Origin: Bryum argenteum
Lineage: Eukaryota; Streptophyta; Bryopsida; Bryales; Bryaceae
Length of the DNA stretch: 64,000 bases
Direction: 5' to 3'
Assembly (NCBI GenBank): GCA_037043015.1
Contig: CM073327.1
Location: 11,142,727 to 11,206,726, forward strand
The notes beneath the pieces are model-generated. The model saw only the letters and a program-made list of their open reading frames with translations. It was not told the DNA's origin and did not search any database. Shown here piece by piece: positions 9,824 through 42,300 of the stretch. The first letter of the stretch is position 1. Each line of letters opens with the position of its first letter. The position numbers and the translations under genes are program-made.

Positions 9824-9925
9824 TCATTTATAAAAAATTAAAAAATATAATTCCAGGGCATATCCTTTTCTCACTCATTTATAAAAAATTAAAAAATATA
9901 ATTCCAGGGCATATCCTTTTCTCAC
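9824..9925. repeat. Perfect tandem duplication, 51-bp unit x2
   Basis: Two head-to-tail copies of an AT-rich 51-bp unit starting TCATTTATAAAAAATTAAAA and ending TCCTTTTCTCAC are identical as read. The second copy runs directly into the CACTA-like element that follows. Confidence 0.9.
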
Positions 9926-39322: not shown

Positions 39323-42300
39323 TCAATTATGCCAATATCCACATGCCTTACCTTTCCAACAATATCCTTGTAAATGGAATTTGCAAGGCATTTTGGAATC
39401 TATTTGACCTTTTATTGATTGTTCATCTATATTGTTGTAACCTTTAACTCCCCCTGCTTCTGAGGATGTTCTTTGATAATTTCCAACAACTTCTTCCAAT
39501 CTATCAGAAGAGGAAATTCCTACAAGGTTATCTATATATATGTCATTAACTGAATGGCATATATTAACAGGAGCATTTGGTGTCAAATAATCTAATCCTT
39601 CAGCATTAATCATTGTATTTCCACTTTCTTGAGTAGAAATTATTTGATTATGCATAGACTTTGATGAATTTATTGACATAGATGCTTCACATGCATTATT
39701 GTTTCCTTCAACCAATCGAAATATATGATTTTGTTTCATATTGAATTTCCCTTGTAAGCCATCTGTCAAAAGAATGGATTGATTTTGCCCTTCAGTGGTT
39801 TTCCATATCCTTAAGTCGATGGGAAATAAACCTGTTCCATTCCACTTTCGCAATTGCTCCATGGAGAAAGGCCCTTGTATTGTTCCAGAAGGATCAATAT
39901 AATGCCATAATTTTTCATATTCCATTGAGTTGGTAGAATGCGCCAAAATCGTTGGAACTATGGTTCCAGGCATTCCTCCATGATGTCGTACATAGTTTGG
40001 TGAAAATAATGGAGAGTTTATATTTTGTGAAACCTTTGGTTCAATTTTATGATTAATATACTTCATGGTTTCTATTTCTTTCTTTTCATGAGGCTCTTGT
40101 CCATCCCTTACTTTCTTTGGAAGATCGCTTGAGTGATGTGGAGAAATTTCATGCTTTTCATGAACTCTTTCATTAGTCCGATGCGACTTTTCATCTTTGT
40201 TCTGAATATTATGATTTATTGAGTTGGATGATTTCAATATTGGGCGGTATGGCAATGATTCTAATTGCCTCCAATTTATTGCCTTTTTATTAGAATCTTC
40301 ATCTCTTGAACTTGATGAGACCTTGTTATTGCTACCTTGTTTCCATTTAAAATCATCTATACCTTTCAATTGACTTGAATGGAGATTTAATGTTGGAGGT
40401 TGAAGTCGAGTTGGATGAATATCTTTATCTGCATCACCAATAAGTTGATAAGGGTTTGTTTGAAATAATAAAATCAATAAAGTTATCATAATGTATAACC
40501 TGTAATCTATTAACACTTTGAAACCAAATTTATACGTTCAAAAGAAGCTTATGTCATTTCTTGCTTCATTCTTCTTTATTTTAGTATATGTATGTGTCAT
40601 ATAGCACCTTGTGTTCAATGCATATATTGCTTTTGTACTTTTTTGAATGATATGATGTATTTGTTCTTGGTTGGCTATGCAATTTTGATCAACTCGTGTA
40701 TAATAAAGATTTATCTCGTAAATCATGAAAAAAATTAAGATTGCAAATGGTAATAAACACCTTATTATCTATAGACAATAGAAATGAATATGAAAAAGTT
40801 TAATGCTCACCCATGAGTGTACCTCCTTCACCATGTTCGCTACCATCATCAGATTCATAATTTGGATCCATATGAGGATCTGCACAAATCTCAGGTCTTG
40901 CTTTTACCTTTTGGATTCGGAAAGCAGGATTGTTGAGTTCTTGGAGTTTCTCAACACATTCTCGTAGTGTGAGAATCAAATTTGAAGTTAAGTACACAAT
41001 ATGATTGAATCTAAATATTGTTCAAATGTGACAATGGACCCTTTAATGTGTCTCAAATATGGTTTTTGCAAGGTTTATGTTATAATTTCACATTGTTCTA
41101 TTTTCATGTGTCAAACTATTATAGAACTATTATAATATTTTGAATGGTTGAAAATAAAAACATGTTATATAAAAGATCAATGTGCATCATCAAAAGATAT
41201 TCTTTTTTTCGGCCTTTTTCACTTGCTCTATCTCTTAGGTTAATGAGGCGTTGTCGTTCGCTTTCTATCCACTGTCACAAAATGATTTTAGTAAAACTAC
41301 TTCAAGATTACAAAAGAATTATACATTAGAATCACGTATAAGCATAAAATATAAGATATAAATATACTATCTATACTTATATATACATATAAACTTATGT
41401 ATATGAACATAAGACTGTTTGTAGATATCATAATGTTTTATTCCATACATCATTAACTTTGGCTTCTTGTAATACTATGGCTTTTTCTTCTAGTTCACCC
41501 TGTATACAACAAATGATGTAATAATTTGAGTCAAAAAACATACTTTTATAGAGTTAAAATTCTCAAAAAATCATATGTAAGTGCAATATATGAGACCTTT
41601 GACTACCATCAAATTACCACAGTAAGTGTCTTCAAAAAGCCACACTTTATGTTAAGTCGTAGTCTCTCGCATTCTTCCTAGAGTCACATTCATCGATGTA
41701 AGTGTATAAGAATTTGAACATAAATTTTATAAAACTCCTACAAATCAAATGTCTTATTTTGGAATTTATGAAGTATTTACAAAAGTAATATTTTTGATAT
41801 ATGTGGAAACCAAACCACTGATTCAAATATAGACAAACCTCTGTAAAATCTTGATTTGAAACAATATCAATTGTGATGGTCTCCTTTTTTTGAAGATTCA
41901 AAATCAATAATGTTAGATTTGTTGTAGACAACCCAACCATATATGATTCTTTTTGTACACTAGTACCTACGTCATAACACAGACGTTTAGTCTTCTATAT
42001 AAGTACTGGATAGAATTTGATTATTGTTATGAATCATACTTCAAATTATATTCAAGAAAATCACTTACCTATAACAAGAACAAGTCGATAGCATGAGTCC
42101 ACTTTTGAGTTCCCTGGAACTCGTATTTTAACAAATGTTCCAACAACTTTACTTTTAAAATTGGGATCACCTATAAACTCTTCAAGTATTGACCTTCGTA
42201 AATATATTAAGCTTATATTCTTGTAATTTATAGCTGCGAATTCATCACTTTTAGGTCGTTGAGAGCTTTCGTCCAATTTTCTAGATTTTTTACGCTTATT

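Follow-up and report, generated by a model that had tools for sequence, protein, structure and literature searches.

In a gene of Bryum argenteum that resembles the plant NERD, CCCH19 and CCCH44 genes, intron 8 is very probably an AT-AC intron excised by the minor (U12-dependent) spliceosome, a judgement based on its splice signals and on related copies of the gene in the same genome. The window, that is, the whole stretch of DNA analysed, is 64,000 nucleotides long and covers positions 11142727-11206726 of contig C7 in a genome of 258.8 Mb; the intron lies at 40969..41200 of the window on the minus strand, with a length of 232 nt and phase 2. A U12-type AT-AC intron had already been proposed at this place in a sequence-only reading, and that proposal fits the donor, the branch core, the AC at the homologous junction, the better-preserved intron in the same codon of a paralogue, and the junction peptide of an intronless copy. 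It is an intron of a known kind, and this instance is new.

The host gene was modeled on the minus strand from 44849 to 39323 as ten coding exons, which give a 1232-aa open reading frame from the first ATG to a TGA with no internal stop, and further upstream exons are possible. Pfam places Plus-3 (1.1e-21), SWIB (9.4e-17) and GYF (1.8e-12) domains in the protein, all above the cut-off; a PHD-like finger scores below it, and the C-terminal CKFHLQGYCWKGKACGYWH is a CCCH finger by eye only, with no Pfam match. The window protein has these domains in the order PHD-like, SWIB, Plus-3, GYF and CCCH, counting the sub-cut-off PHD-like finger and the CCCH finger seen by eye, and we take this to be the layout of the plant NERD, CCCH19 and CCCH44 proteins. 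Arabidopsis NERD has a role in RNA silencing and is presumably the orthologue of the window gene. The best match in the PDB is the Plus-3 domain of RTF1, in alignments that, as shown, end before the exon 8-exon 9 junction, and the junction peptide of the true join was matched by no family in Pfam. Rfam and tRNA scans of the window found nothing.

Eight of the nine introns in this model are GT-AG introns, intron 8 being the exception. Upstream of it, exon 8 (41201..41271) encodes WIESERQRLINLRDRASEKGRKK followed by GA and terminates at 41201 (..AAAAAAAGA); downstream, exon 9 (40811..40968) begins at 40968 (ACTACGAG..) and supplies A plus LRECVEKLQELNNPAFRIQKVKARPEICADPHMDPNYESDD.... Both flanks are well matched in the paralogue on contig C1, at 87.5% identity over 24 aa for exon 8 and 75% over 40 aa for exon 9. 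The GYF domain and the C-terminal CCCH finger are encoded by exon 10 (39323..40428) and would be absent from the protein if intron 8 were retained, as the length of the intron is not a multiple of three and in-frame stops follow 26 codons past GRKKE.

The 5' splice site of intron 8, ATATCTTTTG (41191..41200), matches ATATCCTTT at 8 of 9 positions. Measured against the U12 donor consensus ATATCCTT at +1 to +8, as given in PMC2831892, it reads ATATCTTT, a single transition to T at +6. The branch-site-like GTACTTAAC (40987..40995) resembles TTCCTTRAY rather weakly, at 7 of 9 positions, and contains the full CTTAAC core; its branch A is at 40988, from which 19 nt remain before the intron end. The 3' splice site, CTCAC (40969..40973), was read from the sequence and the exon model, and the intron closes with AC (TTTGATTCTCAC). 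The limits of the intron, its two ends and a branch-like motif about 19 bases from the end had all been described in the sequence-only reading, and we verified both the letters and the coordinates. Judged by its letters, then, the window intron appears to have a slightly decayed donor, with T at +6, and a weak branch site.

We estimated chance expectations for these signals by dinucleotide shuffling of the intron, repeated 4000 times. A donor matching ATATCCTTT at no fewer than 8 of 9 positions arises at the fixed position with a frequency of 3.8e-4, a CTTRAY core whose branch A lies 9-25 nt before the intron end with a frequency of 0.020, and a 7/9 match to TTCCTTRAY in that same range with a frequency of 0.13. 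Counting both strands, the window contains the motif ATATC[CT]TTT six times; a donor motif of this form is thus not rare in itself, and what matters is its location at a junction defined by homology. Elsewhere in the window, two ATATCCTTT 9-mers, each the exact U12 donor consensus by letter, are found 51 bases apart at 9860 and 9911 of the plus strand.

We enumerated the joins between exon 8 and exon 9 that have GT/GC-AG, AT-AC or AT-AG ends and an intron of at least 60 nt, and that keep the frame free of stops throughout. We counted 173 of them (36 GT/GC-AG, 70 AT-AC and 67 AT-AG), thus the reading frame alone does not dictate which join is used. When we recounted with any termini, at the same minimum length, exactly three joins were found to yield the peptide GRKKELRECVEKL: one at offset 0 (AT-AC), one at +1 (TA-CA) and one at +2 (AT-AC, ATCTT...CACAC). 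All three give the same mRNA, none of them is GT-AG or ends in AG, and it is the join at offset 0 that is singled out by the U12 donor motif. This recount agrees with the earlier statement that GRKKE-LRECVEKL is obtained in frame here and is unattainable with an AG acceptor.

A genome search using the Plus-3 to exon 9 portion of the window protein as query gave 15 matches, of which six belong to the window gene itself, five to an intron-bearing paralogue on contig C1 (minus strand, tblastn matches 31026739 to 31020791), and four to contig C10. In the C1 paralogue, the only intron-bearing one that we examined, the same codon is split by a U12-like AT-AC intron, GA|ATATCCTTTTTGACC ... CGCCTTGACATAAAAGTTTGTCTTAC|TTTGAGG, 311 nt long and giving the peptide GRKKDLREYVEKL. 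Its donor ATATCCTTTT matches the U12 consensus at 9 of 9 positions, its branch site CGCCTTGAC (CCTTGAC) places the branch A 18 nt from the intron end, and its 3' end is CTTAC. C1 also allows an in-frame AT-AG join six bases further along, which gives GRKKEEYVEKL, with two residues fewer. Compared by blastn, the window intron and the C1 intron match at E 0.35 at best, so what the two have in common is their splice signals. Because introns this diverged still agree in their U12 donor, in a CTTRAC core placed 18-19 nt before the end, in an AC end and in the phase-2 codon that they interrupt, they are best read as descendants of one ancestral U12 AT-AC intron.

On contig C10 the matches consist of one intronless copy and three pieces near 3867746-3873893, two of these with stops. 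The intronless copy (3879056-3882400), a probable retrocopy, is a single open frame of 1115 codons. It can be aligned to the window protein over residues 237-852 and 1034-1232, and the alignment is continuous over the first of these stretches, beyond the sites of introns 1 to 8. At the junction it shows SEKGRKKELRECVEKLQEL, the predicted spliced peptide, and it has the look of a spliced message preserved in the genome. Between the window gene and this copy, pS ranges from 0.76 to 1.05 and pN from 0.27 to 0.52; with synonymous sites saturated, we claim no dN/dS ratio. The intron is likewise missing at the intron 8 site of one decayed C10 piece (EKGRKRELRDYAGKLQE). Close to the intronless gene, at 3867705-3875060, lie several NERD-like pieces that have decayed and contain stops, suggesting local duplication and decay.

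We scored donors with a U2 matrix built from 13 U2 donors, eight from the window and five from C1, whose leave-one-out scores run from 2.5 to 12.9. On this scale the AT donor of intron 8 scores -9.0. Among the GTs within the intron the top score is 2.6, at 40995, about that of the lowest-scoring true U2 donor (2.5), and this GT serves no frame-keeping join among the 173; the best of the 16 GTs in the region (6.3, at 40822) is located late in exon 9, where it could not act as the donor of intron 8. The GT-AG and GC-AG alternatives were rejected on their joins and donor scores. The one that had been named beforehand as a possible refutation, a U2 intron from a donor at 41161 to the AG ending at 41011, does join in frame (offsets +39/-42) and would add 27 residues, but its donor, CAT|GTTTTTATT, scores -1.0 and the 27-residue insertion is absent from both the C1 and the intronless C10 paralogues, which leaves it next to no chance of being right. 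Just as improbable is a GT-AG intron running from the GT at 41222 (CAA|GTGAAAAAG) to CTACGAG, again in frame (offsets -22/+8), by which SEKGRKKELRE would be reduced to K, giving RAKCVEKL: the donor scores -5.1, and the join deletes a block present in both paralogues (SEKGRKKELREC in C10 and SEKGRKKDLREY in C1).

A different possibility is that the AT-AC ends are correct and are cut by the major (U2) spliceosome. U2-type AT-AC introns are indeed known, one in an Arabidopsis GFP reporter according to PMC6283158, and others, with G at +5, in sodium channel genes as described in PMC2831892. Intron 8, however, has C at +5 and the extended ATATCYTTT donor motif, and the 9/9 donor of the C1 paralogue together with its CCTTGAC branch site also speaks against U2 cutting, so that we regard this possibility as very improbable. 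We return, then, to removal of intron 8 by the minor spliceosome.

In that reading, U11 would pair with the donor ATATCTTTT, the T at +6 forming a G.U pair where the C1 paralogue has G-C, and U12 would pair with the CTTAAC branch core. Splicing to CTCAC would join GA to A-CTA-CGA and so produce GRKKELRECVEKL; with the intron retained, the protein would stop 26 residues past GRKKE. Pairing with the genome's own U12 was computed (duplexfold) as -2.1 for the branch site of intron 8, -4.9 for that of C1 and -7.7 for the consensus, and pairing with its U11 as -3.6 for the intron 8 donor and -6.1 for the C1 donor. The simple reading of the weaker pairing is consensus drift in the window copy: the intron would predate the duplication that separated the window gene from its C1 paralogue, with departure from the donor consensus following later in the window copy.

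The same genome has one gene each for U12, U11 and U6atac above the Rfam gathering scores. U4atac was not detected in the genome; its search matched none of the 14 control genomes, nor did the other family searches, and such silence makes the controls uninformative on sensitivity. A member of the CENATAC/CCDC84 family and a TXNL4B/DROL1-like protein (PDB matches: TXNL4B at 2e-25, U5-15K at 2.1e-8) are also encoded. CENATAC acts on AT-AN minor introns, according to PMC8280824, and DROL1, the plant TXNL4B, acts on AT-AC introns, according to PMC11039992.

We also looked for other introns of this kind. The strict pattern RTATCCTTTN{60,90}TTCCTTRAC has four matches in the genome and its reversal has none. 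Three of the four have WAC_Acf1, MCM or Indigoidine_A coding sequence on both sides; the matches have canonical donors because the pattern demanded them, and the C1 donor is the only canonical one that was not pre-required by the search pattern. These three flanked matches, on contigs C2, C3 and C6, are U12-like GT introns (GTATCCTTTT...TTCCTTGAC). We considered the one RTATCYYT-type site in the CENATAC region, GTATCTTTT, as a U12 donor, but it sits in an open frame, is thus probably exonic, and was left out of the count. Glutathione synthetase is a gene with a U12 intron, and in this genome it has one intronless match and one partial match. The domain is found on contig C11 (4181671-4183056) in a single 557-aa open frame without introns.

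The sole U6atac gene found, on contig C5 at 2338666-2338788, carries UGAGCCGAGAGA at the place of UGAAAGGAGAGA in the Rfam consensus. The AAGGA of U6atac pairs with the donor, and in this gene that element reads GCCGA, with GAGAGAAGGUUAGCA and GACAAGGA retained; the gene ends in a T run and is preceded, about 30 bases upstream, by a TATA-like box rich in A. Neither a 161-base DNA search nor a degenerate pattern for the core, which tolerated as many as 3 mismatches, found a second U6atac locus. Searched as a pattern with 2 mismatches at most, the consensus 5' region yielded 11 matches, against 12 for the control, and cmscan reported no U6atac at the 8 of these 11 that were taken up as loci. There may be a normal copy that the assembly lacks or that these searches passed over; alternatively, the element may be dispensable in this plant, or the gene found may not be the one in use. 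One might go further and suppose that U6atac has lost AAGGA while some U12 donors stay canonical, that donors are recognised through U11 and proteins instead of U6atac pairing, that +6 and +7 are relaxed, allowing the drift to ATATCTTTT, and that the intronless NERD copy escapes control by the minor spliceosome; taken as a whole we think this unlikely. If the change in U6atac is real and the gene found is the working copy, it would offer a test of how far pairing between U6atac and the donor is needed.

Using locus tags for NERD and its relatives, we found no U12 intron in these genes in the main text of papers, and such an intron may be listed in supplements or U12 intron databases. No co-mention of At2g16485 (NERD) with U12 was found in the literature, nor any of ATATCTTT with U12, and CCCH domain-containing protein 44 has no mention among the U12 and minor-intron literature matches listed. 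Relatives sought in viral contigs (25 pattern stretches) and in bacterial and archaeal genomes (20) yielded none that could be confirmed.

That AT-AC introns are rare, as the sequence-only reading had it, holds for introns overall, but among U12 introns they are not exotic: they make up 13-26% of U12 introns in four plants (PMC7367187, Table 2), compared with 4.8% in an earlier study quoted in PMC5932401. The closest likeness is to intron 4 of plant CBP20, also a U12 AT-AC intron whose position in a plant gene is fixed and which precedes a C-terminal part of the protein. The CBP20 intron is described in PMC5932401 as present in all ten land plants compared and was studied there with minigenes, whereas the NERD-like intron is known from one genome and its paralogues, by sequence. 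A human U12 intron in UFD1, GTATCTTTTT (PMC7367187, Table 1), likewise has a U12-type donor with T at +6, although its ends are GT-AG and the gene is another one. The DROL1-dependent introns of Arabidopsis and the CENATAC-dependent introns of human, which are AT-AC or AT-AN, are of the same subtype, and the B. argenteum genome encodes both families; the dependency is known for those introns, and intron 8 shares the subtype by its letters.

Gene predictors that allow only GT/GC-AG introns are expected to mis-annotate the NERD-like gene past the Plus-3 domain. Since retention of the intron brings stops after GRKKE and the loss of GYF and CCCH, minor splicing would be needed for full-length protein from the window gene and its C1 sister; minor-spliceosome activity would be a requirement for these two and not for the intronless C10 copy, which would escape any such control. 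We infer from this that expression may be tied to minor-spliceosome activity, as had been suggested from the window alone. A single genome thus offers a natural comparison among a C1 intron with a canonical donor, a window intron whose donor and branch site have decayed, and a C10 copy with no intron, and this comparison lets one ask whether minor splicing limits a gene that is thought to act in silencing.
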